Assembly: GCF_019059575.1 (NCBI RefSeq)
Contig: NW_024881507.1
Coordinates: 1,736,001-1,800,000 of the forward strand
Length of the DNA: 64,000 nucleotides
Source: Amphibalanus amphitrite
Lineage: Eukaryota; Arthropoda; Thecostraca; Balanomorpha; Balanidae
Reading direction: 5' to 3'
Shown here: positions 3,133 to 63,587 of the stretch, one piece after another
How the letters are laid out: each line of letters opens with the position of its first letter
Numbering within the stretch: the stretch's first letter is position 1
The notes under the pieces: model-generated
The model's input: only the letters and a program-made list of their open reading frames with translations
What the model was told of the DNA's origin: nothing
Database searches by the model: none
Translations under genes and position numbers: made by a program

Positions 3133-3138
3133 TTTATT
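3133..3138 (-). terminator. Candidate poly(A) signal of the transposase-ELM2-SANT gene
   Basis: TTTATT on the plus strand reads AATAAA on the minus strand. It lies about 475 bases downstream of the TAG/TGA-type stop at 3613-3615 and is the first canonical hexamer after it. It would give a 3' UTR of roughly 0.5 kb. This is a positional inference only. Confidence 0.4.
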
Positions 3139-3612: not shown

Positions 3613-4068
3613 CTACCGACTGACGGGCACCGGCGTAATACTGCACTCGCCACTGAGCCGCACTCCGGCGCTCGGCTTGTCCGCGGCGCCCGCCCGGCCG
3701 CGCTGCTCCGGCGAGCGCCGAGAGCCGGCCGCCACCGGCTCGATGCTCACTGAGGTGCCCAGCGCGTTCAGCATCGGACTGAGCAGTGTGAGCGCGTCGT
3801 TCGCCGGTCCGGCCCGGCCGGCCGCCGCGGCCGCTGGTGACGGTGCCGGCGGGCTGGAGGTGCCCGACGCCGGAGCACTGCTGGCGCCCCCCTGCGGCGC
3901 GACACTGGCGCTCACCGGCGGAGCGGCGGAGTCGCGCGGTGAGGCCGCCGCCGCCAGCGCTGCCTGCCGGCGGGCGATGTGCTTGGCTCGTCGGCGCCGG
4001 ACGTAGCGGTCGGTGGTCTTCCACATGTAGTAATACTCGGTCAGCTGGGCGCTGGTCTTCCACGGAAG
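3613..4068 (-). CDS. Exon 6: end of SANT plus basic and Ala/Pro-rich tail
   Basis: After acceptor ttcccttgcag the exon begins LPWKTSAQLTEYYYMWKTTD, almost the MTA signature. Tyr and Lys of YYYMWK contact HDAC and inositol phosphate in the MTA1-HDAC1 structure. A dense basic patch follows (RRRRAKHIARRQ, likely a nuclear localisation signal), then Ala/Pro/Ser-rich sequence to a stop at 3613-3615. The tail is far shorter than in MTA1-3 and lacks the GATA-type Cys4 finger. A possible internal donor (CTCA|GTGAGC, at 3750) could splice the tail to undetected downstream exons, so the exact C-terminus is uncertain. Confidence 0.75.
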   Translation of the reverse strand, partial: LPWKTSAQLTEYYYMWKTTDRYVRRRRAKHIARRQAALAAAASPRDSAAPPVSASVAPQGGASSAPASGTSSPPAPSPAAAAAGRAGPANDALTLLSPMLNALGTSVSIEPVAAGSRRSPEQRGRAGAADKPSAGVRLSGECSITPVPVSR

Positions 4069-7000
4069 CTGCAAGGGAAACGGCCTATGAAAAACACCAA
4101 CAACTTATTGTGCCAAAGCATCGAACAAGCAAAACATTGCTTCGTAACACCTCAGAGCGCACATCAGACTCACTACGTCAAACTGCCGTGCAAAGGCAAA
4201 AACGACTAAATTAGGGTGACCTCTGACCTCTGGGTTAGGGTGACCTGACGTAACTCACCTCCTACCTGACGTAATCGCTTTTACCTTTGCACGGCATTAT
4301 ATTCTAATGCTCCGTTAGGACCGAGCAATGTACGACTACTTGCGCCCGATCAGCATTCCGCCCCCGCAATAAGAACTCACGTATTCCCGTCGGATCAGGT
4401 CGAACATTTTGCCGTGTCGGGCGATGGCCTCCTCAAAGAGGGCCGTCTCGTGGACGGACCAGTCCTCGAGTTCGTCGCGGCAGAGCACTGGGCCGCCCTC
4501 GGGCACCAATGACGTCAGAGCCTCGGCCAGCTGATAGTCGTGCCGGTGGAGCACGTCCATCGCGTGTGCCTGCCGGGACGGCCACCGGGCCGTGAACATG
4601 GGGACGCGGGCGGACACATCGGGTAGAGATATGTCACACAATGGGGAACATTCACTAAATGTTACCATTGTTTTAGGTTCATGATACCTATGCGATGCCA
4701 GTACGGCAGATCGATAAGATTGCATAATTGGCAAACGTGATGGATTGCGTTGCTTTCGTTTCCTCATACGCCGAAAATAGTAATTGCAGTAAACTCTTCA
4801 TTCCCTGTCGAGCGAATTGTGAAATCTAGATCTCCCCTTGGACACGCTCAGGCCACCAACGGCCGCAATACCCAGCACCCATAGAGCGAAAGTTCCCACA
4901 GCATTTCGCCACGGTCGGTTATCGGCTCAATCTTCCGTCCCTTCCCTCTCATCAGGTCTACCTGGGACACGAACCCCATTGGATGCTGTGACATACCACG
5001 ATACCTCATACAACATCGCAAATATAGAATACCATAGACCTCTGTACAGAAGACATCGTTTATCAGCAGAATTTACATTCCCTAACATGCAACAAAACAC
5101 ACGCCATTCGTTCACGGCGCCGGCGGTCCCACCCCAATAGTGCGCCGGCCTGGCTCAGGGTCGGCCGGTGACGTCACCCCACTCACTCGTGTGACGTCAC
5201 GCGAGGCATTGGCGGCCGCCACGTGGATGCCCGGCTGGGTGGCGGCCGAGCCGGCGTCGCAGGCGCGGGCGAACATCCCCACCGCTCTGTGGGCACACAT
5301 AGATCAGATCAGCACAGAGATCAGATCAGATCGGGCCGAGATAAGAGTACAACACCTGACTCCGAGATAGAGCCCTCGACTCCAAATATGAGAGGGTTGT
5401 TTTTGTAAGAACGTTTCTAACACGCACGATGAGAGGAAGGTAAAACAAAGGTGAAAATTAAGACGCGAAATCGTCCCTTAACAATATTCGACGCCAAATT
5501 ATATGATAGATAACAAACATTTACATACACAAACACGTCTGAATTTCACTGAAAAATATAACGTTTGCAATCATGAGATACCTAATCTAATTAACCGCCC
5601 ATTGATCACCATGTAGCAGTCTATGTCACCCCTGTTCGCAGCAGTCACCCCCGCTCCTCACCTGGTAAGCTGGACAAACTGGTTGATCTGCTGCTCTGTG
5701 AGTTTGTGCTCCGGCGTCCAGCGGACCTGCTGTTTGGCCGTGACCTCCGACTCGGTCTGACCGGTCACAGGAGCGGGGGCCACCTCGGCCTGGAACTGGG
5801 AGCCCACGCGGATGCCGCCCTTCCTAGGAGCCAGCAGGTCCGAGACGGCACGCACCGGCGGCGACGGCTGCCGGCAGCGGGGGGGGGGGGGGGGGCGTCA
5901 ACACAAACAGAAACATGAGCGTCAAAGAGAGGCGGCAGACACAGGGCGTCAGGGACGAGTGCTGACAGACACAGTAGGCCAGCGACCTGGAGGCACAGAC
6001 GTTCCATCCATTTTCCATCGAGGGGAATACAAGATCAAATATAATTCTTGCGAGAAAAAGGAAATGATGTCCCTCTAGACCAAATGCCCGCTTTCCAACA
6101 GTCACGCCTATAGGTAGCAGGAAAACGTTACTGCGTTGCGTGCTGCATTAGCCCAAGCCGATACGATCGTGTCGGATAATGTTGCCTCTGACAGCAATCG
6201 CCACAGATGTCGTGAGGGCTGACAATCGCAAAACCAAACCCGGAAATACCGCAGCACATCCATTTTCGAGACATGAAAAAGCAGAGTTTGTGTGTGGTTG
6301 CTGCCAGTTGCGTGTCAGCATCGGCTTGATAACGACGCTATATTGGCAGAGACATTGTTCTGAGCTGGCACGGGTGGTGCCAGCTCAGAGCTGCAGGTTC
6401 GCGTTCTCAGAGTATCGGCCATAGGCACTGGCCATTTTGCACGAAGGCACGAAAAGCTCTTCCTGGGTAACTCCACTGGTTAATGCAGTAACGTAGCCTA
6501 TAAATACGCGTAGCAGTAGCACCATGGAGCACGCTTCAACAATAACAGTCAATCAGACGACATCTGATAACACTGAACCACAATCAATATCCGATCAGCA
6601 CCGACCTGACACACGGAAATGGTTCAACGACACTTCTTGGCGGCAAATCCCAAAAACACGTCCCGTATGAGTCAAGTCAGGAAACGTCCTGTCATGTGGC
6701 ATTGGCCTTCGAGAGGCCACTATTTATTATATCTACCACCCACTACCCTCTACCATTAGTGCACAATGACTCACCTTTGCCTCTATCGACTCCTTTGAGC
6801 CATCTGGATCTGCATCGGGGTCTATATTGAGAATGGGCGACTCGAACTTCACATTTCCCAGAGTGTCGGACTTCTCCGTCTTCACCTCCTTCTTGAGCTT
6901 CAGCAGCCCGTCTGTAAACAGATAGAGCAAATAATGATGCACACATACACAGCATGCACTCATGATAGCCGGCCCGGGGTATATCGTAGGGCTTAGGAGA

Positions 7001-10000
7001 TAGACACGTAGGGCGTGGGAGACATTCCTGACATTCCCCACAATACGTTGCGCCCCACTTCACGGAGACCAATAGTGACCATCTGCATTTGCGAAGCAAT
7101 TGCAATGGTTTTGTCACATGGCAGGATTCAAAGGACCGTCAAATGTGGGAAATGTTAGAACATCCCAGTTCGCTGACATATCACCCAGCTGAGCAAACGA
7201 TCTCCCTCAAACAGCGAGCGTTAAATAGTAAGGTAAAAGTGTAGATATAGTGGCCAGATCAGCCCGTAAAACGGCGTGTCTCCGTTAGGCGGCGGGATTC
7301 ACGGTCGGCCGTGGTGGTCCGGACCGTTACTGATGGTCAGGTCTCACACTCCTATCCCAGCGAGATTCGCCAGACGCTCCGAAACCTTGGCGAAACGCCC
7401 CGAGCGAGCCTTCAGCGACCAAGGCCACGCGGACGCGTACCCAAAGCAACATAACAGACCACCAAACGCACAGACCTAAGGCCCGAGCGCACGTCCCGTG
7501 TAAATAGTCCTCTCGCAGTTGCTAGCAGCTGATAAAAATCTTACGGAGCAAGTAGTGGCCCGATGATAACGCGTAAATGCCTGACGTAGCACTGTAAAAC
7601 AGTTCTCACTTCTCAACGAGCATGTCCGGTGCAAACGAATCAGTTGTGTCGCCGGTCGAACGCACGGAAAACCCGGATAAATCCGGTGAGGTCGATGACA
7701 CTGCGTAGTGTTGGACAGTTGCCATACATGGGACGACATGGAGCGCAGAAGGAAAAGCGACCTAGTGAGTCAGCGCTCCCACCATCTTACAACTGAGCGT
7801 TACCATGGCCTCAGCGCCACATCCGCACGCTCGCAACCTTTATTTACCGGAGGAGTCGCTATACCTACTTGGTAAGCTGTAAGCAGCATGTGATCTCGTT
7901 TACAGCAAGTTAATTAGGTATGGAAGCTGTCTGTTACAGCGGGGAGGTGAAATGATAGCATCAGCACAACTTGCAGATCTGAGCTGCACCAATACTCCCG
8001 GCATGCTAACGGGCTGGTGCACGGTGCTCAGCAGTCGTGCTATCGTCATGAGCATCAATTAATGTGTCCAACATAGTTCGTTAATTAATCACATACACGA
8101 ACAACAGCGCGACGATTAATTTCCACTGGCGAAATACGGCACATGCTATTCTAACTTCAGGAATCCAAATATAAATATATGTAAAAATAGCTGGCATACC
8201 CCAGGGCATACCCGGCCTTGGGCATACCATGACAACAGCTTACAAATCAAACAATTCAATTCCGATCGGCTCCGGAGGACCGGCCGCCCACCGAGCTCTC
8301 CGGTCCGGGCTGCACCCAGCGACCCGGGCTGTGGCTGTCGGCGGACCCCGGACCGGGGCGGGGCGGCTGGAAACGGTACATGGCACCACAGCAGCCGTGG
8401 GAGTCACTGGAGCGCGGCGACCGCTCTCCTGCTCCCAGGGAAGCTCAATACTCTGCTCTTCTCCTCCCCGCGCTCTCTAAACACTCTGCTCTCCCTACCC
8501 CAATGTGGAGGCTCAGCGCTCCACTCTACCCTCTCCTCACTCTCTCCCAGAGCTCCGTCATGCTCCGTTCCGCATTCCGTTCGAGCTCCGTTTCCGGCCT
8601 CGTGACTGCGTACCTCGCATGAGTCTCTGCTACGATCAGTACATGCTGTGATAAACCAACAGTCCCGTATCATTTATCTTAATTGTTCGTGCTATCCGAT
8701 CTATCACACGGACACGCTGTTTTCTATTGTTCCAGGTTCATACAAAAGCATTTAGATAAGCCTGCATAATCGATTCAGTGGAGTGGGAAGCATTCTGCAG
8801 TCATGAACCCATATTCCACAAAATCCACAATTATACTGTCATGTGCATTGTGCATGTGCAATGCGCATCACCTCTAATCTCTCTGATCCGTTTAAAAGTC
8901 ATACTCCGACTCTCCCACCGTGGCCCCAGCCGCTCCTTCCTCCGAGCCGGCTCCCTCGGCAGCCTCTCCGTTCGGGTCCCGACGAACTGCACCTAGCCCC
9001 GAGCCGGGACATCTGGCGTGCCCGGCGGTCAGACGGGCTCGGCGCCGGTCGGGGCGGCCACCGCCGGCGGCACCTAACGGTACGCGGCCGGTCGCGTCGG
9101 CACGCCGCCGCCGACAGCGCCCGGCGACCGACAGCTCTGCCATCGGGAGCTCAGAGGCCGGCAGCTCTGCCACTGGGAGCTCAGAGGCCGACGAAGCCCA
9201 CCGCTACTGACTGCCCAGAGGCCAGAGGACGACCGCTTCCAGGCACTCTTGGATTGACGGCGTCCACAATCAACAGCTACCCTACAATGCAACATCTACA
9301 CCGCCGTTGCAGAATGACAGTACTGTTCTGTGCTATTTCACGAAACCTCGCAGCCATCCAGGCACATCACCAACCCATCACCACCAACTCAGCCACAGTT
9401 CAGCCTCTGGCTATCACCAACCAGCCAGTTCCCATCGTGTCCAACAGGCCCACAGTGCCCATCCCATCTCCGTGGTCTACCTGTCAGCCTGTGATCAGTC
9501 ACCTCGTGACGTCACGGCTGACGGGTGACGTCACACACCGCTGTGTCTCGCGGTCCGTCATCAGCCGTCACTCGTCTGTCGTCAGTGTCTACCGCGCGGG
9601 GCCCGAGGCGGCCCGTCTGACACTACTGGCGGGCGGAGACGCCGTCGTCCGACTCCCAGAACCGCCACCGCCGCTAAACGGCCGTCTCCAACGGTGTGGT
9701 GAATGAATGGCCGTATCAGCAGCGCGATGATGCAGCACAAAGGTAATATGCGATGTGATTATTCGTCTCACAAGTAGCCAGGCGATGCCGAGGAGCAATT
9801 ACCGAATGGAGCGTAAGCTTGGCAAGAGAGCGCATAGCTTCGTATCGATGCAATGCGGATCATATTCTATCTAACATTTAAATAGCAACAGATCAGCCTA
9901 AGGATGCTTGCATTCAACACTTCAAAACAGCCTAAAAAGCCGCATCTTCCAAACACACGACAGAGAGAAAGCGGAAAGTTGCCGCTTGCCAGTATCCTCC

Positions 10001-13000
10001 CGACGTCCTGAAAAACGCCCCGTGAAACCGCTCGCACCGACCGCGACACTCAAGGAGAAAGTTGCTGACATTTCCTTCATATGTGCTGGCCTGAAAGTCG
10101 CCGGCGCCCCTCCCCACCGCGGTATGAAAGTCGCCAGTACCCCTCCTCATTGCGCTATGCAAGTCGCCACGACAGCACCCCTCCCCTGGTCTGAAAGCCA
10201 CCTGCAGTGACCGATACCCCTGCCTATCGCGGTCTGAAAGTGGCCCCCACCCTGCCCACTGAAAGCTGCAGGGACAGGCGGTCTGACAGTCGCCGGCAGT
10301 GACCGGCGCCCCTGCCTGGCCTGCTGCCGGCCGCTCGCCAGTTTGTTGCCCCCGGCTCTCTCACGGCCGTCGCAGTGGTCAAACCAGTCTCCGCCGGCCA
10401 ACAACAGGCAGCGGCGGCGGCCGCGGTGCCGGGAAACAGGTCAGGGTAGGTGCCCCGTGTGGGGCGAGCCGGGCAGGTCAGGGTAGGTGCCCAGAGCGGG
10501 GCGAGCCGGGCAGGTCAGGGTAGGTGCCCAGAGCGGGGCGGGCGGCACAGGTCAGGGTAGGTGCCCAGAGCGGGGCGGGCGGCACAGGTCAGGGTAGGTG
10601 CCCAGAGCGGGGCGGGCTGTGCAGGTCAGAGCGGTACCCCGTGTTGGGGCGAGCGGCACACGTCAGAATTGTGTACCGAGGGACGAGCGGTACGCGTTAA
10701 AAAAGGGGTTGAGCGGTACCAACACGCGTTATAATGGGTTCCGTGAGTCGTATATGTCAGAGTGTGTACCGAAAATGTGAGGCAGGAGGTACAGATCAGA
10801 TGCATTCCCAGAGAGGAGTGACGGGGGTGCAGGTCACTGGTCAAGCGCCGGGGTGCAGAAGGCGAGAGCGACGTGGAGCATGGTAACCGGGCTGCGGACT
10901 GCAGACGAGCCGGTGACATTATCGAATATCGAATGTGAAGTTCACATATACAGTGCATGACAGGCCTTTAGCAGCTTGCAACTACAGCGCCAGACCGCAG
11001 CCTGGGTTATGATTAATTACTTCTTACGCACCAATATCGCTTAAAACCTTCAGGGAGCCTAATACAAATGATCTAGGCAGTATAAATAGTTTAAGGATTG
11101 TTGGTTGGTCATCCCTTTGCCGATTGTCGGTTGGTTCCCTGGTAACGACACGTCATGCTGACTCCATGTCAATTTATCTATAACCCGTTAAAGGGACTAT
11201 CCCACCTTCTAAAATGTTGTTAAAACCCGTTAAATTGTGCCCGACTTTATAGATTGGATGACCAGGAACACGGTTCTGGCATTTATTTTTCATTAAACAT
11301 CTTAGGCTTCCCATATTCCAAACACAAACTTTCAAATATGTGACGTCACAGCCCAAAATTACCTCCTTCCCCAGGCCACATTACTGTCATAAAGCTGATT
11401 CTTTTTACTCTGTAGGCACCACAACAAAGTTCAGACCAAGTTTTAAGCGATTTTTCAACGAACAAACCCATTTAAATCAGAATGACTAAACGAGGTGACG
11501 TCACACTAACGGTCGCTCCATGTTGAAGATAGGGCCTTGTACAAGGCCCATTTTCAAATGAAGGGAACGAATTCCTTCAACACCAAGAGGCCGCGGGGGT
11601 TGCAACCTAGATAGATAGTGGTTTCTGAACCTCGCCGCAAACTTGGCTATCTCAACTCAAACCCCATGTTAAAGGTGGGATAGTCCCTTTAAACCATCAA
11701 CCAACAATTAGCTGGCATGACCACAACAATATTGATCAGTGTGGGAGCATTTATTGGACTTTTAATATCAATCTCGAGGACCTAGCCGCGATAAAACCTA
11801 TAACGCGTTAAGTGCTTTCGACTGCTACCCCTGTCTTTACCGATCATTGTGCGTCGAGAGGTCCTTCTTGCGGTAAACCGAGTTCCGCTATAGATAACGA
11901 AACAGACGATATTTTACTCCACCGCGGTAATAATATGGCATACACCGGAAGAACATTCAATGCCTCCTAACTCATTTAACTCAAGGTGTCAGACTCGCAC
12001 CTTGCCCAATGAATATGAGTCGAATCTCGACACCAATAGTTCGCCCCTCACCAGCACGAGCACATCAACTATACGGGCCGGCCACTGGAGCGTATCAACA
12101 CAGTACCTCCACCGCATCGGCCGCCGGCCGACCCCCGACTGCCCCGGCTGCATGGACACCGCCTGCCCTGCCGCCCGGTGTCTGGTGTGCGGGGAGGAGG
12201 CGGACACCCCGCAGCACGTCTTGCTGCGCTGCCCGTGCCTGTGCGGGGCCCGCCTCCACGCACTAGGCAACATCTACGGCCAACCCCCCGACCTACGCCA
12301 GGACGACGTGGTGGCGGCCTTGGCCGCCGGCTTTCGCTCAATACCAGAGTCGGTCGACTACGCCCCGGTGACGGGGCCGAGGGGCACAACAACAACAGCA
12401 ACAGCGTCCAACGCTCCTCGCACTCAATGGCCCGATGGTCAACGAACGGGGGTGCGAGCTTTTCGAAAAGTATCAGCAGTGTGCTATTGCTGATTGTTGC
12501 TACAGGCTTCAGCCGTCAACGAACAAATCACATGAGGCACACCTTACGGTGCTGGCAAGTCATCAATCATAGAACAGGAGCATGATACCATGACTTGGCT
12601 AATCGGGATAATCAGCATGTCAGAATGGTGGTTACATGCTCCACCTAAACGCATCGATGCAATACAAGTGCGGGTGACAAAATGCAATGTCCACCTGCCT
12701 AAACAAATGAAAGGGGGCCTTGTCGAGATCAAAAGATGATGAGTTTGACAAATTCAGGAGCAAAAGAAAAAAGAAGGAAAAAGCAAACATCCTTTTATCG
12801 TTGGAATAGTAAACGAAAGGTCGACATTGCACATCAATGGTTGATGATGTGTCATACGACTTGACTGTGCACCATTCCTGGCCCACCTTCAACTGGTCCA
12901 ACTCGGGCGACCCAGTAGCAGTTGGGGAGGAGGAGGGGGAAGGGAGGGGTACAGGGGACTGGACTGACCGGTTCGGTGACCGGCAGGGTGGGGCACCTCT

Positions 13001-15430
13001 AACATGTCACAAGGTGACACAATCGACAGGTTAGACCGACGCACTGACATGTCAACGACACCGTTCACCACCTGATGTACGCGACAATGCCCTGTCGGGA
13101 CAAAGTGACCCAGAAACAGATGAAAAAATCGACTGGTCGAGACGTGAAGAGTGAGTGTGATTTAAATGACAAGAAATGTGAAAAGTTTTAGCTTGAACTT
13201 TTCATGTTAGCGTGTATCAAAAGCTGAAATACTCATATCACCTACGATATGCAATATTATGCATACGTATGACCAAAACGGTCACAAATACAACCAAAGC
13301 CTATGCACGTTGAGACGAATATTCAGCATTTCCGGACAGACTACGCCAACAATCCGACTTTTAACGGGGCCCCATCACCGGTACCTCGAGTATCAGAACT
13401 TGAAAACCGGCCTGACAGCCCACAGCCTCGCGTCTAACGGACAGGACAGGGGATATGGATCAACCAGACACAATCACACTTCCGATGGAAGCGATATGAA
13501 TGAAAAAAAAACTTCGTTAAATTTGCACTTCCACGAAGTCTTCTTCATGGAAAGAAGTCGCGACGGAGGTCGCGAAACTGAAGTTGTCATCAATGGCCAT
13601 TCTACGTGACAGATCGGCTGCACGTTAAACGTGCGGCTGTGGAGTTTTGTAGCCCAGAAACCAAGTTTGTGACGGATGCCTCAGTATTGGATAGAGCAAG
13701 TGCGCCACTGATAAAATCTCCCTTCCCAAATGCCTGAAATTGGGCTCCCCGTTCTCCCCTCCCTCGGACACCGCCCACCTGCCAAACCAACCCTGCCTTG
13801 TCCGACCCAGCGCGCCGGACACGATCTTCACCCACGACCCCTTCCCTCCCCGCCGTCCCCGGGACTTACTGTCATGTCGGCTCTCCTGCATCTGCATCCT
13901 GACGATCTTATCCTTCGTAAAGGCCACGAAGCTGAGGACCTCGTCCAGCTCCTCATCTGGCTCCCGTAGCTGGAAGAACTGCTGCAGCACCATGACCGCC
14001 TTGAGCGCCTCCTGGGAGGACGGCCTCCTCTTGCCGGCCGGCGAGCCCACTCTCTCCCCTCCAGTCCTCTCCCTTTTGACGGCGGGCGCTGGGGACAGGG
14101 CAGCGGCCTGCGGCGGGGACGGGCCCCGCTGGGGGGTCCGGCCGGCCGGCGGGCGTCCCCCGGCCCCCGCCACCGCGGGCACCGTCCACAGCAGCGCGTT
14201 GTCGGCAGTGGTGAACGACTCGAGGGTGCATCCCTCGGACGGCGCGAACTGCGAGCCGGCCAGGGCGGCCAGCTGGGCGGCGCCCTCGGCCGGAGGCGGC
14301 GCCGGCTGCCCGTTCACCTCGTCTCGCAGCAGGCCCACCGAGGCGTGGTAGCGGCGCACCACGGCCGAGCTCACGTCCTGCCACCAGGCGCGACTCAGCA
14401 TCTGCACGGCCTCGCCGGCGGCCGGGGGCCGGCCGTGCTCCACCAGAAACTCGGTCACCCGCCGCCGGTACTGGCGTTTGAGGGCGTGCAGCACACCGTC
14501 CGCGCTGAGCTGCTCCTGAGTCAGCGGGCTGGCCGGCATACAGGCCAGCTGGAGCGCCTCGCGGCCGCCGCCGCCCACCGCGTGCGCCGGCGACAGCTCG
14601 CACAGGAAGAGCGCCTTGCGGCCCTGGGCGGCCATCTCGCCGTCCCGCCTGCCCAGCCAGGCCGAGAAGTGCTGCGGCTGGATCCAGGCGGTCGGGTCGG
14701 CGTGATAGGCCACCCGGCCCGGCTGACTGGCGCCCGACACCGACCGCTCGCCCACAATCAGCAGCGGTAGCTTCTGAGAGCCGTCCGCACTGGCGGCCAC
14801 CACCACACTGAACCGGCGCGGCGCCAGCTCTGCGTCCGCACAGGCGCCCACACTAGCCTCGTTGGGCGTCAGGTCGAACACCAGGCCCATCTCGGCCACC
14901 ACAAACACCTCGGTGGCGGCGTAGTCGTCCAGCATGGCCGGCAGCTGGGTGAGCGGCACCGTGCCCTCGGGCGTGGTCTCTGGCCGCCAGCCGTCGGCCG
15001 AGTCGGGCCGGCCGGCCGCCGCCAGACCGTGCCGCTTGCGGAACCCGTCCAGCCACACGGAGCTCGTCTTGAAGTCGTCCACTCCCAGCTGCCTGGCCAG
15101 CTCCTGACTGCGCGCCAGCATCGTCTGGCCCGACACCGCCTGGTTGGCGGCCGCCTGCTCCTGCAGCCACGCGAACAGAGCTTCCTCCAGCTGCGGGTAG
15201 GCGCCGCGGCGCATGCGCACCCGCTTCCGCTGCGGGCCCAGCTCCTCCGAATCGGTCAGCTCCAGAATGCGCTCCTTCTCCTTCAGAATGGTCGACAGCG
15301 TACTCTTGGGAATGCGAAACTGCTCGGCGATCTGCGACTTGGTGCGTCCGTTGCTGTTCTCCACCTCCAAAATGACGGCTTTCTTCTCCTGAATGGTGAG
15401 CGGGTTCACTTTCCGTTTCGCGGCAGACAT
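3613..15430 (-). CDS. Six-exon fusion gene: inactivated pogo/CENP-B-like transposase joined to MTA-type ELM2-SANT
   Basis: Gene model: exons 15430-13870, 6911-6775, 5867-5662, 5286-5187, 4569-4381 and 4068-3613, about 882 residues. Residues 1-520 are transposase-derived: Psq-type HTH about 8-55, CENP-B/Tc5-type HTH about 78-136, degenerate DDE fold about 172-330. Residues 521-566 form an acidic linker. ELM2 spans about 583-690 and SANT about 690-760, followed by a basic and Ala/Pro-rich tail. Every junction is GT-AG and in phase: 1+2, 0, 2+1, 0, 0. In known proteins ELM2-SANT binds and activates HDAC1/2. By inference, the product is a nuclear sequence-specific repressor that targets HDAC through transposon-derived HTHs. 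The MTA BAH domain and GATA finger are not seen. The weakest join is exon 1 to exon 2, across a 7-kb intron that could hide further exons. The alternative is two separate genes. Confidence 0.6.
4069..4380 (-). other. Introns of the fusion gene
   Basis: Intron 5 is 312 bases, intron 4 (4570-5186) 617, intron 3 (5287-5661) 375 and intron 2 (5868-6774) 907. All are GT-AG. Intron 1 (6912-13869) is about 7 kb and carries a MITE, a LINE scrap and tandem repeats listed separately. Between 7120 and 10090 in intron 1, GC-rich patches on both strands give chance open frames without recognisable motifs. I looked for BAH-domain exons there and saw none. Confidence 0.6.
4381..4569 (-). CDS. Exon 5: ELM2-SANT junction and first SANT helices
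   Basis: 189 bases, phase 0 at both ends. The acceptor is gtcccggcag and the donor TAC|GTGAGT. It encodes HAMDVLHRHDYQLAEAL, then LVPEGGPVLCRDELEDW, then SANT helices 1 and 2 with ALFEEAIARHGKMFDLIRREY. The GGPVLCRDE block and WS..E..LFEEA are hallmarks of MTA proteins rather than RCOR, MIER or RERE. The open frame continues upstream to 4767 only because the intron happens to be open. Confidence 0.9.
5187..5286 (-). CDS. Exon 4: second half of the ELM2 domain (MTA-like)
   Basis: 100 bases between gtgcccacag and a GTGAGT donor. It encodes 33 residues including AVGMFARACD and HVAAANASRDVT, corresponding closely to AVGTFARALD and HMSAAAASRDIT of MTA1. It ends in phase 0. The CRE-like TGACGTCA overlapping the donor is probably fortuitous. 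Confidence 0.85.
5662..5867 (-). CDS. Exon 3: first half of the ELM2 domain (MTA-like)
   Basis: 206 bases. The acceptor is preceded by a remarkable run of 17 C (minus strand) and then gctgccggcag. The donor is CCAG|GTGAGG. The encoded KGGIRVGSQFQAEV matches the conserved ELM2 opening of MTA proteins (KGEIRVGNRYQADI in vertebrate MTA1). HKLTEQQINQFVQLT matches the helix before RAVG. ELM2 in MTA proteins wraps around HDAC1. The exon ends with two bases of an Arg codon that exon 4 completes, restoring the family RAVG motif. This supports both splice sites. Confidence 0.85.
6775..6911 (-). CDS. Exon 2: short acidic linker exon with SUMO-type motifs
   Basis: 137 bases between a strong acceptor (ctatctgtttacag) and a consensus donor (AAAG|GTGAGT). 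It starts with two bases that complete a codon begun at the end of exon 1 and ends in phase 0, matching exon 3. It encodes about 45 residues of charged, probably disordered sequence with three psi-K-x-E sumoylation-type motifs (LKKE, VKTE, VKFE) and an Asp-rich stretch (DPDADPD). I recognise no domain, and it does not resemble the BAH-to-ELM2 segment of canonical MTA proteins. It may be linker acquired with the transposase fusion. Confidence 0.65.
10090..10320. repeat. Degenerate tandem repeat (tgaaagtcgcc units)
   Basis: At least five diverged units of roughly 40 bases share (g)tctgaaagtcgcc followed by a C-rich segment. The array lies in intron 1 directly upstream of the cleaner 37-bp array. 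Confidence 0.6.
10437..10660. repeat. 37-bp minisatellite, about six units
   Basis: Units begin caggtcagggtaggtgccc at 10437, 10474, 10511, 10548 and 10585, with a degenerate one near 10622. Period 37. The unit is rich in GGGCGGGC. It lies in intron 1 of the fusion gene. Confidence 0.85.
11192..11688. mobile_element. TTAA-flanked MITE, copy 1 (AGGGAC-TATCCCACCTT family)
   Basis: A 497-bp element flanked by TTAA on both sides (11188-11191 and 11689-11692). The terminal inverted repeat AGGGACTATCCCACCTT is matched by aaggtgggatagtccct at the right end. The TTAA duplication suggests mobilisation by a piggyBac-type transposase. There is no coding capacity. It shares termini and the internal string ttggctatctcaactcaaa with the copy at 27445. 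Confidence 0.75.
12068..12358 (+). pseudogene. Fragment of a non-LTR retrotransposon ORF2 C-terminus
   Basis: The frame encodes RAGHWSVSTQYLHRIGRRP, a Cys-rich stretch and then EEADTPQHVLLRCPCL. This is the pattern found after the reverse transcriptase/RNase H region of arthropod R1/Jockey-type LINEs (GH...YLHRIG..., C..C, ETxxHvLLxCP). No RT core is present upstream and the frame decays downstream, so this is a truncated relic in intron 1, antisense to the host gene. An additional CMDTACPAARC insert between the two halves of the finger is unusual. Confidence 0.6.
12360..13869. other. Remainder of intron 1, no gene recognised
   Basis: AT-richer DNA with no recognisable exon. The frame of exon 1 stays open past its donor to 13625, but that extension has no family similarity and looks like intron translation. 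Confidence 0.6.
13870..15430 (-). CDS. Exon 1: domesticated pogo/Tigger/CENP-B-like transposase
   Basis: The start is ATG at 15430. An in-frame TGA lies just upstream and -3 is a purine, whereas the longer frame relies on GTG. Residues 8-55 form a Psq/CENP-B N-terminal HTH (LTIQEKK...KSQIAEQFRIPKSTLST). Residues 78-136 form the second HTH (FKTSSVWLDGFRKRHGL). The DDE_1-like fold follows, but all three catalytic positions are replaced: AEMGL at 179-183 instead of DE-type, CELSPAH at 277-283 with Glu for Asp and no following Asn, and SADGV at 309-313 with Ala at the third Asp position. The spacing of 99 then 32 residues is still that of the family. An Ala/Pro/Gly linker (about 375-470) holds VKRE and GKRR. 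The exon ends at a GTAAGT donor (13869). Transposase activity is not expected, while DNA binding is likely retained. An open single frame of this length argues for purifying selection. Confidence 0.85.
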
Positions 15431-16400
15431 ATCCGCGCGCGCCACCCCTCACCGCTCAACGCACACTGCGGCGGGTGCCGCGCGCCACGCAGCGGCCGCC
15501 GGCCGGCGACGCCGCCGCCGCGCGGCCCCTCGCAGTCAGCTGTTGGGACAGGCCCGGAGCCGCCGCCGCCGGCGCGGGGAGGGGTGCGGGGTCGGCTGCG
15601 GCCGCTGCCGCCGGCCACGTGGCCACTCCGCGGCCGGCCGCCGCTCGGCACCCGCTTCCGGTCCGCCCGCCGAGACGGAGCCGTGATTCGGCCGTGACGT
15701 CTGCGCCGGCCGTGAGCCCGTGACCTACCCCAATCAGAGCGCGCCGCCCTCCACCCATTCACGCATGTCGAGATTCGGCGCGGCGTCGCGTCGACGCCCG
15801 TCTCTGTCGGCCTGACGCCGCCCCTGCCGGCGCCGACCCGCCGGCCGCCGCCGCCGCCGCTAACTCGAACAGCTCGAAACAAAGACGGCGTCCGCCGCCG
15901 GCCGGGGAAATTCTTCCCGTGCAGAGGTGGTCACGTGACCGGCCCGGTACGGACACGTCAGCAGCCGCCAGCCGGGGCGCCGCCGGCGGTGACGCCACCT
16001 CACAAATAGACGCCCTCCCGCGACGGCAAGGCGCCCCGTTACGTGAATGGTCCAAAAGGGGCGAGGCGCGCCCTTGGTATCGATCGACGCGTGTGTGCAC
16101 GCCGAGCGGCCGTTTTATCTGTGGCCGCGTCATCCTCTCCGGCAGTGGGTGTAGTTTCAGCCACGGACCCGCGGCGCTCCGGCCGGTCGGTCCGCCGCCC
16201 GGGGCCAGGGGAGGGAGGGGAGGGGGAGGATCGGTCGGTCGGGGCACCGGCGGGCCCCGTCACCGACCGACGCCGGGCCCACCGCCCTCCGGGTCATATG
16301 ATGGCCGTTGCGACACGGGGCGACCGAACCGGCATGGAAAGGGCAGCAGCCGATAGCGGGGGCAGGCAGACCGATAACCGGCGACCACTGCTTTGTGTGC
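15431..16400 (-). promoter_or_regulatory. GC-rich putative promoter and 5' UTR region of the fusion gene
   Basis: The block immediately upstream of the ATG at 15430 is extremely GC- and CpG-rich, with Sp1-like GGGGAGGGGGAGG boxes near 16205-16230. No TATA box is evident. Open frames across it on all strands are composition artefacts (Arg/Ala/Pro/Gly only). Assignment as promoter rests on position and composition. Confidence 0.45.
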
Positions 16401-16741
16401 AATCGGCGGCGGCATGACGATGACTGATAGCTAACTAGTAAGGGGAGGGGGATGTTGCATTTATAGACCATTCACGAGTGCATTTTTATTTTCACGCGTC
16501 ACCATTGACCTATAATAATACTTATTATAGGTCAATGCGCGTCACACACGTGTCTTATTTCAAAGTTAGTCGCAGGAAATGATGCATAGATTTATCATTT
16601 ATCTTACCGTCTTCGTTCAAATATTGGTGATAGTCAACGTTGATGACTTCATCGCATTTCGTCCTCAGATTGTGCTATCAGCTATCGGGAATAAACCGGC
16701 TTCTGAACTCTACTTGGGCCAGGTTCTACTGCCGCGATGGT
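16401..16741. other. No gene recognised
   Basis: AT-rich DNA with a short near-perfect palindrome around 16511-16535 (ttgacctataataatacttattataggtcaa). No coding signal. Confidence 0.5.
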
Positions 16742-16749
16742 ATACCTAC

Positions 16750-17126
16750 TAGTGGTGTCAGTTTCAGAAAATGTATGTCCAATGTCCGTCCAATTTCCAA
16801 TGCTTGCGTCGATTGTCCGTCCAAAAATGTCCAAGCCAGCCATTTGTCCAAAGATGTCCGAAACATACGCAATAGTTTACACTCAACACTGTTATTTAAT
16901 TTGTTTTAAATGTACTATTACCAGCTTTAATGTGTTAATCATCTCAAAAGCTGAGCTTTCTATTCGCCAATCAGTGTTAAACACGATTGCTTTATAAAAA
17001 TGCTGAGGTGTAGCAAGTGAATGTCCAAAGTTGTCCAACGCCTGCCGTCATTGTCCAACCGAATTCCGAATCGGACATTGGACAAAATCGGAATTCCGAA
17101 GATTCAAGTTCCGATTGACACCACTA
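16750..17126. mobile_element. hAT-type MITE with perfect 8-bp target duplication
   Basis: A 377-bp element bounded by inverted repeats TAGTGGTGTCA at the left and TGACACCACTA at the right. It is flanked on both sides by ATACCTAC (16742-16749 and 17127-17134). An 8-bp duplication and this terminal sequence are typical of hAT elements. Subterminal regions carry many copies of TGTCCAA/GTCCGTCCAA in both orientations, probably transposase binding sites. No coding capacity. Confidence 0.85.
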
Positions 17127-17130
17127 ATAC

Positions 17131-17709
17131 CTACCGAATGTGGCAGCCAAGCCGGAGGGAGACAGGCGAGGCGACAGCTATACCGATGTTACGTGAGGAG
17201 AGTAAATGAGCATTATCACACGGCATGACAGACAACATTGCCGGTCGAGCGCAACAGAAAATCCGTCGGAAATGCGCATAGACTTGCTCATGTACAGCCC
17301 TCTGCAAACTGCGTGGTAGGTATTCTTTCTTCGACAAAACCGAGAATAACGCAGATACTATGCTATCAATGATTCTGCGCGATCCTGGTACCCAAAATTT
17401 ACTTTGAACTGCAGCCAAAGTTGCTTCAACGCCAGCATGAGTTTCATTGTGCACGTGAAGGATGTAAAGCTTCGTGAACCGATGATCACTGGGCAGGAGA
17501 ATGAATGAATCCGTGTTCCAGTTTTCCTTGAGCCATTTTGACATTCTCTGTCCAACGACAATCATGCCTATATCATTTAGGCTTGGTCCCAATCGTTTAA
17601 ATCGGGCTTTCCAGTCTATTTCTAACAACTGTTTTTGAGCCTGTTTGATCCATAGTATTTCAGCATCCGACAGCTGTTGGGCCGTCAGTGGTCGTCCTAT
17701 CGCCTTCAA
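17131..17709 (-). pseudogene. BEL/Pao integrase N-terminal remnant
   Basis: The frame keeps the region around the HHCC zinc-binding module (LHVHNETHAGVEATLAAVQSKFWVPG). The Cys pair expected next is already lost, and the DDE core is absent because the element is truncated. A stop lies at the junction with the hAT MITE target duplication. Confidence 0.65.
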
Positions 17710-18460
17710 AGTTTTTTTCTTCTGCGCATTGACTAATGCGAGCAGTAACTCGCAGTAACTTGACGTAACTGTTGAAATTGTCCAAATTTATCGACCCGCT
17801 GACATCGCCCGCGTCATCTCCTTGTTTTCCTTGCGCAATGTGTACTCGTATTCTATCTGGTAACTCATTCTCCTGTTGGTGAAACTCTTGGCTGATCGGC
17901 CACTTCTCTACCGGAAGATCGAAGAATTGCGGTCCTCGCTGCCAAATAGAATTGGCCCCGATTTGTGTCGGGCTGGCAATTCTGGTCACCATGTCGGCAG
18001 GATTATCGCCTGTGCCGATCCACCACCATTCATTGGGATCGGACTTATTTTGTATTTCTGCTATTCTTGTCGCAACAAATGATCCAAAACCGTATGACTC
18101 CTTTTGAATTTGCGTTCGCACTATCGCTGAGTCGACAATGTGAAATACTTTTTCGTACTTGTAATTCATTTCCTTCTGAATGGCTTCTCGTAGTCGGCAT
18201 CCAAGAACTGCCCCACAAAGCTCCAATCGAGGAACAGTCAGCTGTCTTGTTGGAGCTATCCGATTTTTTGCTGCGATGAGTCGAGCCTCAAAGTGGCCCG
18301 TTTCGAGCTCCCATCGGGCGTAGGCGCATGCCCCGTAGGCATGCATACTGGCATCCGAAAATATGATTAATATTGGGTCTCCTTTCGCTTCCTTTGGTTC
18401 AAACAACGAGAGAATGTCACATCTTGCAACTTGAGTAGTTCCAGAAAAAAGAACTTCCAA
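17660..18460 (-). pseudogene. BEL/Pao RNase H region in a shifted frame
   Basis: This frame overlaps the end of the gag-RT frame but lies in another phase. It contains the BEL RNase H-like landmarks FSDASMHAYGACAY, APTRQLTVPRLELCGAVLG and GTGDNPADMVTR. It ends at a stop at 17660-17662, after which the element continues in the original phase. Confidence 0.75.
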
Positions 18461-21400
18461 TCCATCCTGTCTTGATCTGATATAGGATCATCCCATCCAA
18501 TCGCTGAAGAGCCGTCTTGATTTTCAGTTCTCTGTCGTGTGACCAAATTTCGCAAGAGAATTTTTCCTTTCAACGTAACTGGTATGATCAACCCGAATGG
18601 ATCGTATAGGCGTGCCGCCTGGCTCAATACCATTCGCCGGGTAAGCCGTAAAGGGAAAATAGCATCGATGTTCGATTCTGTTAAATCGGGAGTGGCTGAC
18701 ACTTTGTTCCACTTCGACACAGAAAAGTTTATTCTGACTTGGAACAAAAAGTGATCGCCCTTTGGTACCCAACACATGCCGAGTATCTTCTCTTTGTCAA
18801 TGCTTAAGATTTGGATGCTGGGACAGATGCCCCCAGTATCATCTCCGGACATTATCCAGTGTTTGATCTCAAAACCTCCCTTGTGCAGTATATTTTGCAC
18901 GTTTTCAGCTAAGTGCAGTGCCATCTCCACGCTTGGAACTGATTGAATCAAGTCATCAACGTAACTGTTCTTGATTATCATTTCAGCAGCTTCTTCTGAT
19001 TCGTCTCTGTGCATTTCGGCGATTGATTTTAGAGCAACCATTGAGATAGTTCCGCTGGGTCTATCTCCAAACGCAACAGCTAATAAGATATGATGGTCAG
19101 GTTCTTGATGGATGTCCATATTGCGCCACAAGAAGCGATGTACATGTTGGTCCATTTCAGCCAGTTTGATGGAGTTATACATTTTGCTTATATCAGCAAC
19201 CAATCCAACCTGTTCTTCTCTAAAACGCAGCAAAATACCCAGTAGGTTATTTATCACATCCGGACCTTTCGCCCAATAGTCGTTGAGGACATGGCCCATA
19301 AAAGACGCTGAGGAATTGAATACAATCCTCAATGGAGTCGACGCAGAATCTGGCCTGAGTATTTCGTGGTGATGCAAATAATGAACCGGTCCTTCATAAC
19401 TTGCTATTTCCTTCTCCGACAATTTTCTGGCTACCTGTCGTCTAAGCATGTCTTGCATTTGATCATTGTATGCTTCTGCGTGTGGAGCGCCAATCTTGAT
19501 CAGCCTTCTTTCAGTGGCTCTTAATTTTGCTTCAGCGGCCTTAACATTGTTGGGAAGTTTCATCGGATCCCTGATCCAGGGATAATGAACGGTAAATTTG
19601 CGTTGCTCCGGGTCATATGTTAAGCCATTCTTAATGAGCGTCAGTTCTCGTTCCTCTTGCAAGGTGTAACTGCTACTACCCATTGCACATTTGCCGCATT
19701 TGTATCCGCCGCAGCGTGGTGTACAATGTGTGCCAAGATTTTCAATGACAAAATACTCGTCTAATTTCTGTGTTAAGCTTGTCATTGATTCGGCTCTCAT
19801 ATTGCTAATATCGGACACGACTATCCCGCAACCAATATCCACTGATTGTGTCTTGGGCGTTGAAGTACTATCCATTGGATCGTAGCAACCGCGAATACAG
19901 TAACCAAACTGATTTTTAAGAAGCTGTAGACTGCCCACCGTTTCGACTACGTCTGGCATCAGCACACAGCAGTCGATGCCGATCAGCATGTCAACTCTTC
20001 CGTGCGGCCTTTCGATTTCTTGCACCTTTGGTTCGTTAAAAATTGATGACAAGGAAGACAGATCACATTGCTCGATGTCAGACGTAATGTCTTCGATACC
20101 ATATGCATGGACCTGCCAGCATTTATCGTCCGTGTCTATAAGAGGAACAATATATCGTTTCGTGTTGAAGGCTTGTACCTGGTTTCCCACTTTTGTAATT
20201 GAAAGTTCAACTTCTTCACTGCATAAATTTAACCGGGATGCAGCCTTATGTGTAATCAAAGATATATTGGCGCCTGAATCCCATAACACTGTCAGCCGTT
20301 TGTCCTTGCAAATAACACCGCTCACCGCGAGCATTGATTTTCGCTTGTTATTTCTAGTTGAATGTATGGACGCGTTGTTTTCGTTTGGAGGCCGTTCAAA
20401 ATGCAGACACGAGTGGTGACGTTTTCCACATTTTTCATTCAAATGATTCCGTTTTTCACATTGATTTTCGTATGGGCATGATGAGGCTATATGTCCCTGT
20501 TGAAGACAATTGAAGCATGCTCCATTTTGTCGTAGAGTACACAATTTGTCTTCGCGAGTGGAATTGAGGAAAGCGTTGCATTTGAAAATTGAGTGAAAAT
20601 CCGTTTTGTGGATCCAGCAGCGACTATTCTCGATATCTATGTTATTCTTCTTTTTGCTACCTGTAAATTTCCTCGTGCTTGGGTTTTTTAACAGAGTTTC
20701 CATTCGGTCAGTCATGTTTTGAATTTGGTTGCATATTTTCACAACATCTGTTTGCGATGCATCGGTTGTCGTATCGAAATTCGTATCGGCAGATATCGAG
20801 TCGCTCGAATCGACTTGAAGACTATTTATTGCTGGATTTACATATTTTGAATTTGTACCGGTATAAGTTCGGACGTCGTCGTCCATATATTCGATGACCC
20901 TTTTTTCTTGTATTAAATAGGATAGTAAAGTACGAAAGGTAGAATCACAATTTTCACTGCTGTTTTTCAGTTCTTCCATTTTTGTTACCCATTCCCGCTT
21001 TTGAGTTCTTGGCAGTAATTTTTCGACCATGGTGACCATTGTGGTCGTGTCCATTTCTTGAGACATGCCCAATCTTTGAAGTTCCATCCAACTGCGCTCT
21101 ACCACTTCTACCATGGAAACAAACCTTTTGTTTTCGCCTTCTGGAATGGGCTTCAGTCTTTTGATATCAAGTATAATCGAATCGACTAATTTTCTCGTCT
21201 CTCCATATTTTAGATCTAACCTCCGAAACATCTCTTCGTAATCATCTTCTACGCCTTTCACTGTCTCCAGCGCAGCTCCTGACAAGCATTGTCGAAGTGC
21301 ATAAGAATCCTTACCGAACTGTTTGGTCATTAGTCGAAGATAATCCTGCTTGAAACTTGTATATTGTCTGATATTTCCCGAGAAACGCGGTGCATCTAAA

Positions 21401-21789
21401 GGTTTAACGTGAATTTCTGAAATTTTAACGTTTTCAGCCTTTGTCTTGATGGCAAATTTTGTTCGAATTTCATCCATGCTTGCCTCAACACCCATCATAT
21501 ATTCATCACATTCATCTAATAATTTGTCTATTAAATGGTGTGGTCCCGTTTCGTTTATCGCAGCGTTGACCAGATCATTGCATTTTTAAACTTGCCGATA
21601 TGCATCTTTGATATCTTCGAATTTATCCTTAATAGCAATAAATGGGCAATCGTTTTCGATCATGTCATGAAAACCAATAGTTTTTCTCGTAAATTTTCGT
21701 TTTGCGTTGGTTCGATCTTGTTTAGTCGTTCGTATTTCTTTCGTCATATCCAGCGGGAATCTCGAAGCCTGGTCTTCTTGCTTGCTCAT
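18367..21789 (-). pseudogene. BEL/Pao gag-protease-reverse transcriptase remnant
   Basis: From an ATG at 21789 the frame runs 67 codons to an in-frame TAA at 21586-21588 and then stays open in the same frame to 18367 (1043 codons from 21498). In order it shows a gag-like DUF1759 region (PRFSGNIRQYTSFKQDYLRL), a CCHC knuckle (CFNCLQQGHIASSC), a protease active site (VLWDSGANISLI), RT motifs (VADISKMYNSI, SYVDDLIQS) and the start of the connection region. The stop and the frame loss after about 18390 mean no full polyprotein can be made. Confidence 0.8.
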
Positions 21790-22639: not shown

Positions 22640-23664
22640 CGAGGCTCAGGCTAAGTGCTTTACAGTAGGCGCCGGGTGCAATCGGACCTTGCCCAAATTT
22701 CTTTCGAAAGCGTTGTTATTTGTGTCTGTATGCGAAAAATGACATTTGAGCCGGGTATCTCTCCCGTATCACACCGACGATTCTCCTGCTGACCGGTTGA
22801 CAGCTCTGAGATAATTCATTCAGCGGACAGACACAGGTCCGGCAGGGCAGGGGCCCCCACAGCACGGACCGGAAAGGTCACCGGTGGTCGTACTCCGGCC
22901 GATAGGTGCAATCAGAGATAGTTTATTATCTCTACAAGTCATCACACTAATCGAATAGGCCATTTGCACTAAACAGTCAGCCGCCCGTGGGGCGGACGGG
23001 CTAGGTACTCTCTGATATACTGAGAGGCGATGTGGACACATAGGCTCACCACGAAGTCCGAATCGTCGTTCCTCGTTCACCGTAAAACGGAACAACGTGC
23101 TGGTGGGATGAAATTTGGACAATGAACAGTGGATACATTACAAATCTGCATTAGTAAAGAGAAACGGCCATGAAACACATTTTGTAAGCACAGGAATGAT
23201 AAGATAATCTTCCTAGAACTCTCTCCAGTCAGTGGTAAGAGCCAATAAAAAGATGTGGGGTCGAAGAAAGCATGACGTGACCGACCGGCCGAATAGCTGA
23301 TTGCCAGTGCAACGCTCGGAGTTGCAAAAACTCACTGCGCCAATCGCGCGCTAGCGGGCTGGCAACAAACGTAACTCAAACCGCCAGTCGCCAATCGCAC
23401 AGCTTTGTAGTCTTTCCGAATGACATTTTTAATGAATGCATACCTATTATATGCTTCTGAAACAAGACCGCTTTCAGGCAGACCGATAAAGTGCAATTAT
23501 GTAGGTAGAGAACGGGTTAGCAAGACGGTCAGATTACAGATAAAAGCAGCGCCATCAGGACAGTGCGACTGCGAGAACCACACTACTGAAGGGGGGGGGG
23601 GTGAAACTTGAGCTGAAAAGTGCCTTGAACTGACTCCTGAGGACCCGCCAGGACACCTTTATTC
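22640..23664. other. No gene recognised
   Basis: Mixed-composition DNA with short frames only. A run of 10 G begins at about 23591. Confidence 0.5.
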
Positions 23665-24684
23665 TTAACCCTCGCCAGGCGAGGGCCTTTTCATAGCGCG
23701 GACGGCGAGGGGGGAGGGTATACGACGCCCACCCCCGGCGATTGGCTCATATGGCACTTACAAACGCCACATTTACAGGGTAGGTGGGCCCAGGGTAGGA
23801 GATCTCGCCTCTGTGCAAATTTGGTGACCCTAGATCAATATTAAGGTTTTTTTTTGGGGGGGGGTAAAAAATGTAAAAGTTAAGCTAAAACAGGTCAAAT
23901 GTTTTTCGCCTATAACGTTTGATCTGTTAAGCATAGCGCAAAAATAAAAACACCAATGAACTCAACACGTCAATGCGCATCGAATGGTATAATTTGTTAG
24001 CAGTTTACGTGAACTCTAAATTTTACTAAAATTAAGTGACATTCGACTCGGCTGATCATCATGAACAAAATGACACCATTTTTGAAGCTCTAGCCTCATT
24101 GTATGCCAAGTTATTAGCAGAAACGTAATTTGACCTCATTTGACCTCATTTGACCCGACCCTGGCAATTTTGCAGCAAGCAAACAGCGAATTCATCACGT
24201 ATTGATGTAAACTGAGGCATTACAAGACAAACACGTTGAAGTAAAGCACATTTTTACAATTTGAGTCATTCGGCGAAATTATATCAGAATTTGTCATGAC
24301 CTCTAGATGCCCTTAGGTCACCCGAATTTTAAAAACCGGAATGCAATCAGGTGAGATTAGCATATCCTGCCGGTTTGAATAGAATAGATGAACAACTTTA
24401 GATTTCATTAACAAAATAGTGTATTTTCAGTGCCATTTTGACCATGTACCGGCTTTGTGACCTTGTGACCTGAACTGAGGTCACTGGTGCTATCTGCCAC
24501 GGTTCTCACACTAATACCGCTCAACTATTCCAATTTTACCCTGACCTTGACCGGTTTTCGTAACCTTGTGACCTGACCAAATGACTGAGACCTGAAATTA
24601 TCAGGGAAGGTGCCAATAGGCTGCCCCAGAGGGTATGCCGGCAAATTGCGCCGCCGTTTTGACGCTATTAACGACAAACCTTAA
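23665..24684. mobile_element. TTAA-CCCTCGCC sequence, possible outer piggyBac-like element
   Basis: TTAA at 23665-23668 is followed by CCCTCGCCAGGCGAGGG, a small palindrome resembling the ends of the neighbouring TTAA element. A related palindrome (cctcgccgggcgagg) follows the right TTAA of that element at about 25655-25670. The interval is AT-rich and full of TGACCT/AGGTCA hexamers (24120-24600). It may be the left half of an older element into which the 24685 copy inserted, or simply the neighbouring relic. No coding capacity. Confidence 0.35.
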
Positions 24685-46496: not shown

Positions 46497-46552
46497 CCAG
46501 GAACCTTTTGATTTATTGATGTGATTAGACTGGAGTGGTTCCATTTCCGATA

Positions 46553-49810: not shown

Positions 49811-50115
49811 AGCGAGTGACGGTGCCGCGACTCGAGCTGCTGGGCAGCCTACTGGCAGCTCGCCTCGTCGCTCTCGTGCGCCAGGCACTGAGACTTCCCG
49901 AGGACACGGTAATCAGGTGCTGGTCGGACTCGATGATTGCGCTGGGCTGGATAAGGGGAGATCCACAGCGCTGGAAGCAGTTTGTGGCCAACAGAGTGCG
50001 TTCCATTCAGAGTCTGACGACTCCGTCCGACTGGGGCCACTGTCCGGGGGATGAGAACCCTGCTGACTTGACGACTCGAGGGGTGTCGGCTGCGGAACTG
50101 CTTGAATCCGAGTAG
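49690..50115 (+). pseudogene. BEL/Pao RNase H region in shifted frame
   Basis: The frame beginning at about 49690 carries FGDASPRGYGAVVY, APLKRVTVPRLELLGSLL and GHCPGDENPADLTTRG, the standard BEL RNase H landmarks. It ends at an in-frame TAG (50113-50115), after which the same frame continues into integrase. Confidence 0.85.

Positions 50116-60142: not shown

Positions 60143-63587
<3,445 letters not shown>

Follow-up and report, generated by a model that had tools for sequence, protein, structure and literature searches.

A probable fusion gene of thoracican barnacles in which a degenerate pogo-type transposase is joined to the ELM2-SANT module of a duplicated MTA gene

The window analyzed here is a stretch of 64,000 nucleotides from the barnacle Amphibalanus amphitrite (C10:1736001-1800000 of the assembly). 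Six exons lie on its minus strand between 15430 and 3613, at the coordinates claimed in the preliminary description, and their joined frame encodes 882 amino acids followed by a stop codon, with no frameshift or early stop. The domain order of the predicted protein is CENP-B_N, HTH_Tnp_Tc5, a degenerate pogo DDE fold, a linker, ELM2 and SANT. The features of the locus are as follows:

13870..15430, minus strand: exon 1 (1561 nt, residues 1–520), pogo/CENP-B-like DNA-binding part and degenerate transposase, with the donor GTAAGT
15260..15418, minus strand: CENP-B_N helix-turn-helix, residues 5–57 (Pfam 4.2e-9; CENP-B, PDB 1hlv, E 4.4e-20)
15020..15199, minus strand: HTH_Tnp_Tc5, the second DNA-binding domain, residues 78–137 (Pfam 8.8e-13)
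14315..14908, minus strand: degenerate DDE domain, about residues 175–372 (Pfam DDE_1 1.5e-14)
13871..14041, minus strand: conserved C-terminal helices of the transposase part, residues 464–520
6912..13869, minus strand: intron 1 (6958 nt)
6775..6911, minus strand: exon 2, linker with psi-K-x-E motifs
5662..5867, minus strand: exon 3, ELM2 (Pfam match at 5667-5813)
5187..5286, minus strand: exon 4, C-terminal helices of ELM2 (RAVGMFARA...ASRDVTR)
4381..4569, minus strand: exon 5, link helices and, from about 4461, the first half of SANT, with the equivalent of MTA1 K305
3613..4068, minus strand: exon 6, stop included; second half of SANT (4003-4068) with the equivalents of MTA1 Y327, Y328 and K331, then a basic tail, a low-complexity stretch and the conserved C-terminus ...ECSITPVPVSR before the stop
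3133..3138, minus strand: candidate poly(A) signal AATAAA

All five introns are of the GT-AG type with a running phase of 1, 0, 2, 0 and 0, and the RAVG motif is restored at the join of exons 3 and 4 (AG|A GCG GTG GGG), both as previously claimed. The GC3 of exon 1 (0.89) resembles that of exons 3–6 (0.83–0.85), which was counted in favor of a fusion gene; the values for exon 2 and for the retrotransposon frame located upstream were 0.70 and 0.43, respectively. The psi-K-x-E motifs of exon 2 (LKKE, VKTE and VKFE) are SUMO-consensus-like, and the first and the last of them have the counterparts VKKE and IKFE in a homologue from the barnacle Pollicipes pollicipes (P0001, see below). These motifs could mediate SUMO attachment and so provide a further repressive route.

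Other elements were seen in and around the gene. A 37-bp minisatellite of about 6 copies is placed within intron 1 (10436-10667). Upstream of the gene, BEL/Pao-type retrotransposon frames extend over 17131-21585 on the minus strand, with DUF1759, DUF1758, RVT_1 (below the cut-off) and Peptidase_A17 in a 1072-aa frame. Two long open frames of 1093 and 537 codons, the first of which starts BEL/Pao-like as judged by eye, occupy 46529-51726 on the plus strand. A CT dinucleotide array at 62471-63585 (1.1 kb, 561.5 copies, 98% match) accounts for the extremely skewed base composition with which the window ends.

Exon 1 carries the two helix-turn-helix (HTH) domains that had been reported from the sequence, each with a Pfam match, and the double HTH matches the DNA-bound structure of CENP-B (1hlv) and, weakly, that of fission-yeast Abp1 (1iuf, 1.9e-4). 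The AlphaFold model of exon 1, based on four sequences, had a mean pLDDT of 45.5 and is unusable beyond the HTHs. In the model of the Pollicipes protein most ten-residue blocks of the HTHs reached pLDDT values of 85–95, the rest being mixed and the SANT domain of low confidence; the pTM was below 0.3 in both models. At E<=0.001, a Foldseek search with the Pollicipes model retrieved three MTA1:HDAC1 entries and the CENP-B:DNA complex.

The state of the transposase was assessed by aligning exon 1 with the open frames of the 12 best DDE_1 loci in the genome. Aspartate is found at the first catalytic column in 11 of these 12 resident pogo-type frames (the remaining one does not reach the column) and at the second and third columns in 12 of 12, as opposed to A179, E278 and A310 in the window protein, where none of the three is an aspartate. 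Since E278 is acidic and A310 is adjoined by D311, the predicted catalytic loss rests mainly on A179, where the change from D to A leaves no doubt. With this caveat, the dead DDE fold of the preliminary description stands. The equivalent columns hold A, E and P in the database protein P0121, S, E and P in P0122, and A and E at the two columns covered by the model of P0001.

Throughout the 807.55-Mb assembly (2644 contigs) a single strong match to exon 1 was found, namely its own copy (1142 bits), and the next two matches were 25% identical and placed on two contigs with equal frames. A multi-copy transposon is rejected on the grounds of this single full-strength copy. Terminal inverted repeats around exon 1 were also sought: the region 12000-17500 contains 33 inverted pairs, most of them GC-rich and inside or near exon 1, and nothing convincing was seen among the 25 listed of these 33, the pair I23 that flanks the exon (16 nt, 81%, arms at 12122 and 15493) looking like chance.

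The genome contains at least 100 DDE_1 matches on many contigs. Some of them form sets of equally scoring copies whose open frames measure about 519, 759 and 902 aa, and the pogo-type transposons of A. amphitrite seem to be young or recently active, which would provide potential targets for a repressor that binds pogo elements. A second pogo-like gene (G000:C2134, about 23188-24279, and C2209, minus strand) presents an 824-aa open frame with DDE_1 and HTH_Tnp_Tc5, equal on the two contigs. Its first catalytic motif is GEF instead of DET, and its C-terminal tail, which ends in ...DSK plus four residues, resembles that of exon 1 by eye; it is possibly another domesticated pogo gene. A second fusion at this locus was rejected, as the 20 kb on the 3' side of the C2134 copy gave a single tblastn match up to E 0.1 (E 0.010, 31% identical, opposite strand), which was taken for chance.

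The remaining exons encode an ELM2-SANT module of the MTA type, in agreement with the earlier assignment. ELM2 is recognized in exon 3 (Pfam 1.7e-9), and a PDB search with the frame of exon 5 retrieved MTA1 (1.1e-19). The SANT domain is split by an intron and its single-exon Pfam score falls below the cut-off; a value of 1.1e-6 was obtained with the Myb/SANT model on the joined protein of Pollicipes. Four residues, which we take to be the inositol-phosphate pocket residues K305, Y327, Y328 and K331 of MTA1 (the numbers agree with the PDB chain numbering, K305 being counted by hand), have equivalents in both the window and the Pollicipes protein. The MTA1 side of this pocket is formed by two lysines and two tyrosines (PMC4244562).

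The previously noted absence of BAH and GATA domains was borne out by tblastn of the 64-kb window with the MTA queries P0120 and P0115 at E<=1, in which the matches cover only query residues from 143 on and neither domain was found, and by Pfam analysis of P0001, where both are equally missing. An upstream BAH exon that could be joined to exon 2 is therefore rejected within the window.

A separate canonical MTA gene, the existence of which had been left to be checked, is present elsewhere in the genome (L001/L002). Within the 10-kb stretch inspected (L009), which lacks the first BAH exons, its later BAH part, ELM2 and SANT are 61–94% identical to other arthropods and its GATA-like and C-terminal pieces about 38–49%. 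A second, divergent MTA (L008) lies in the stretch L010 (G000:C254:586501-596500, with an equal-scoring match on C1021) and has both BAH pieces, ELM2, SANT and a GATA-like piece; its ELM2-SANT is 57% (102/180) identical to that of the canonical barnacle MTA, and it is perhaps an ohnolog from the genome duplication reported in barnacles. Altogether, ELM2 matches were found at 12 places in the genome, several of them in pairs resembling two haplotypes; among the others, L003 looks RCOR-like and L004–L007 look like other ELM2-SANT proteins. The last exon of the fusion gene is single copy, its four other matches (40–43%) corresponding to the two MTA genes and their pairs.

The three introns within the ELM2-SANT module have the same place and phase in the canonical barnacle MTA, and two of the three are present in the second paralog. 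From this coincidence with the canonical gene it follows that the copy arose by DNA duplication and not via RNA. The window ELM2-SANT is 94/179 (52.5%) identical to that of the canonical barnacle MTA and 83/177 to that of the second paralog, as compared with 142/179 between the canonical barnacle MTA and a prawn MTA. The identity to the MTA domains retrieved from the databases ranges from 47.8 to 56.2%, against 66–100% among a sample of 15 MTAs.

Trees were used to ask whether the copy may have originated within barnacles. When L010 is included the four barnacle sequences group together (94/82), a grouping that leans on long branches; when it is left out the grouping is neither recovered nor rejected (p-AU 0.475). 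The pairing of the window with the Pollicipes sequence is supported in both trees (100/99 and 100/100). An ancient genome duplication has been reported in barnacles (PMC11331182), and its link with the fusion gene is only a possibility.

The same domain order was sought, as the preliminary description had proposed for arthropod proteomes, and it is present in a gene model of Pollicipes pollicipes, the predicted 'uncharacterized protein LOC119092144' (P0001, 713 aa), in which Pfam recognizes CENP-B_N, HTH_Tnp_Tc5, ELM2 and Myb/SANT. The fusion protein is thus already deposited in public databases as an uncharacterized prediction. In a search of 5.8 billion proteins with the window ELM2-SANT (7987 candidates scored, 1322 at E<=0.001, the best 120 listed), P0001 was the best match, with 377 bits against 257 for the next one, and it was also retrieved with the transposase part. 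Among the best 120 of the 1322 matches, the 119 besides P0001 have ELM2 together with BAH, as judged by eye, and many are named MTA.

The alignment of the window protein with P0001 runs from the start (MSAAKRK) to the end (...GECSITPVP) and is colinear across all five joins, which makes the fusion more than chance. Identity amounts to 54/57 in CENP-B_N, 62/79 in the linker and second HTH, 103/152 in the first DDE part, 46/57 in the C-terminal helices, 142/179 in ELM2-SANT and 77/104 in the C-terminus, with a moderate conservation (28/46) in the exon-2 linker. The model of P0001 lacks the residues corresponding to about 290–463, which reflects either a real deletion or a fault of the prediction. 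The Pollicipes annotation was produced by the NCBI pipeline with RNA-Seq among its inputs, on a chromosome-level assembly (PMC8917513). Four barnacle species including A. amphitrite and P. pollicipes are estimated to have diverged ~247 million years ago (PMC11331182), and an ELM2-SANT identity of 79% maintained over this time points to purifying selection on this part of the predicted protein.

With a profile of three exon-1 sequences, a search that finds relatives sharing short words and may let distant ones escape, 4 of 7997 scored candidates were retrieved at E<=1: P0121 (554 aa, source ena), P0122 (537 aa, source lgn, from a 4-kb contig), P0123 and P0001. The transposase part thus appears limited, in this search, to these four proteins, the two named ones being from barnacles. 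The first HTH is 93–100% identical between the window and three relatives. P0123 is the GenBank record for A. amphitrite 'Tigger transposable element-derived protein 4'; it presents exon 1 as a protein of its own (414 aa), which agrees with residues 1–414 of exon 1 at 412/414 positions. Since no conservation is seen beyond the donor, and the Pollicipes model extends past this point, we take P0123 to be a truncated model of the fusion gene, and the stand-alone TIGD4-like gene of the annotation is rejected.

Beyond the donor of exon 1, give or take three residues, the window, P0121 and P0122 no longer resemble each other. Reading past this donor (A|GT AAG), the window continues from RHD with S-K and 79 other residues (81 codons in total). 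P0121 matches exon 1 up to RHD and goes on with S-K and an unlike 25-residue tail, and P0122 matches up to E-T, three residues before RHD, followed by S-K and a stop. We infer that the S-K of P0121 and P0122 marks a conserved splice donor. The reading of the locus that we regard as probable is a fusion gene of thoracican barnacles, composed of a degenerate pogo transposase and the ELM2-SANT of a duplicated MTA, with a likely role as a tethered HDAC repressor.

The same donor region bears on two alternatives. In the first, which is unlikely, alternative processing would yield, besides the fused repressor, a DNA-binding protein made of the transposase part alone, and this short form would compete for the same sites. 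The open frame past the donor (81 codons in the window, 27 in P0121, two and a stop in P0122) and the deposition of P0121 and P0122 as transposase-only ORFs, the latter from a short contig, speak for it; the tails, however, are unrelated in sequence and length, as expected for an intron.

A slightly weaker alternative considers two neighboring genes: exon 1 would be a TIGD4-like gene without introns, and the ELM2-SANT part, devoid of BAH, would be a second gene that starts independently. It draws on the GenBank label of exon 1, on the 81-codon extension beyond the donor, on the length of intron 1 (7 kb) and on an in-frame ATG at 6961-6963, located about 50 bases before exon 2 with no intervening stop. 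However, the Pollicipes model joins both parts at the identical point, and the end of the window/P0121/P0122 similarity at the donor implies that the read-through tail is not a conserved protein. In addition, the codon at the exon 1–2 join encodes Asn in the window and also in Pollicipes (RHD-N-G), whereas the unspliced reading gives Asp in the window. Two separate genes are therefore improbable, and expression of the fusion gene as one protein in A. amphitrite is what these comparisons predict.

In the proposed fusion protein, a single-copy, catalytically degenerate pogo transposase with a retained CENP-B-type DNA-binding domain would have been spliced to ELM2-SANT exons donated by a duplicated MTA gene, without its BAH domain, GATA finger and C-terminal part. 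The two HTH domains would bind a specific DNA sequence and the ELM2-SANT, by analogy with MTA1, would hold a class I HDAC on the DNA and activate it with inositol phosphate. In MTA1 this module is responsible both for the recruitment of HDAC1 and for its activation with inositol phosphate (PMC4244562). Such a DNA-bound HDAC scaffold would create local repressive chromatin and act as a one-piece sequence-specific repressor; it may, as the preliminary description suggested, bring a deacetylase to old transposon ends. HDAC binding, DNA target and repression are all predictions made from the sequence.

It is also conceivable, at rather long odds, that the fusion is real and its main role is not repression: the protein might, for example, draw HDAC off from NuRD, or have an architectural function at centromeres or satellites. 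In favor of this reading are the CENP-B-like nature of the DNA-binding part and the absence of two segments of MTA, BAH and the C-terminal part, to which contacts with chromatin or with further NuRD subunits have been ascribed (PMC4244562); nevertheless, a conserved DNA-binding module combined with kept HDAC and inositol-phosphate residues best fits a tethered recruiter. That the gene is an artefact of the gene model or the assembly, or a pseudogene in decay, might be argued from the haplotig-like duplicates of the assembly, but it is extremely improbable in view of the same architecture in the gene model from the independent chromosome-level assembly of Pollicipes pollicipes, the near-identical first HTH in three relatives and the uninterrupted joined frame.

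In the tethered repressor, which belongs to an invertebrate lineage, a captured DNA-binding domain would be coupled to the core scaffold by which class I HDACs are held and activated. The fusion appears to have lasted for ~247 million years. It offers a natural and testable design of a one-piece repressor, and an example of an MTA duplication in which the extra copy found a new use alongside the retained canonical MTA. More speculatively, and with considerable doubt, the protein may form a barnacle-specific chromatin complex that predates the thoracican radiation, in which a pogo-derived, CENP-B-like protein with its own HDAC-activating scaffold would act independently of NuRD to silence defined repeats, either resident transposons or satellite DNA, as a covalent and independently reached version of the Abp1–HDAC arrangement.

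New regulators are known to arise by transposase capture, the best-known cases being vertebrate ones with KRAB-like or SET-type modules, of which KRAB works via other cofactors. The transposases of KRABINER, SETMAR and CSB-PGBD3 belong to the mariner and piggyBac superfamilies and are placed downstream of the host exons, whereas the transposase is upstream in the barnacle fusion. In these fusions the DNA-binding part of a transposase has become attached to a regulatory or chromatin protein of the host (PMC12062965), and the host modules differ from the ELM2-SANT found here. Among vertebrate pogo chimeras, CENPB, POGK (with KRAB) and POGZ (with zinc fingers) have been described (PMC7386202). 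The order CENP-B_N/HTH_Tnp_Tc5/DDE_1 is common to CENPB and barnacle exon 1, and POGK likewise adds a functional domain, KRAB, to a pogo transposase. The three are nonetheless vertebrate proteins that arose in separate events, and ELM2-SANT does not appear in the domain table of that work. No description of a pogo-ELM2-SANT fusion was found in the literature searched, which consisted mostly of titles and abstract openings and lay largely outside subscription journals, and the terms 'ELM2' and 'barnacle' are absent from the main text of a survey of animal transposon-derived transcription factors (PMC10027918; term search). Within these sources, pogo chimeras and host-transposase fusions are already known and the pogo-ELM2-SANT combination appears to be new.

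With MTA1/2/3 of NuRD the barnacle fusion shares the ELM2-SANT (~52% identity to the barnacle canonical MTA), the intron positions and the inositol-phosphate residues; it differs in the lack of BAH, GATA finger and MTA C-terminal region and in the gain of a DNA-binding domain. In Schizosaccharomyces pombe, the CENP-B homologues Abp1, Cbh1 and Cbh2 are reported to localize to Tf2 LTRs, where HDACs of classes I and II are recruited through them (PMC4981269). These domesticated pogo-type proteins resemble the barnacle fusion in the CENP-B-type double HTH, in their transposase origin and in bringing HDACs to DNA, a property that is predicted in the barnacle. In the yeast the HDACs are separate recruited proteins, whereas the barnacle chain itself includes the HDAC-binding scaffold. 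The two domestications are likely independent, and HDAC recruitment by Abp1, Cbh1 and Cbh2 would represent, by analogy, the closest working parallel to the barnacle fusion.
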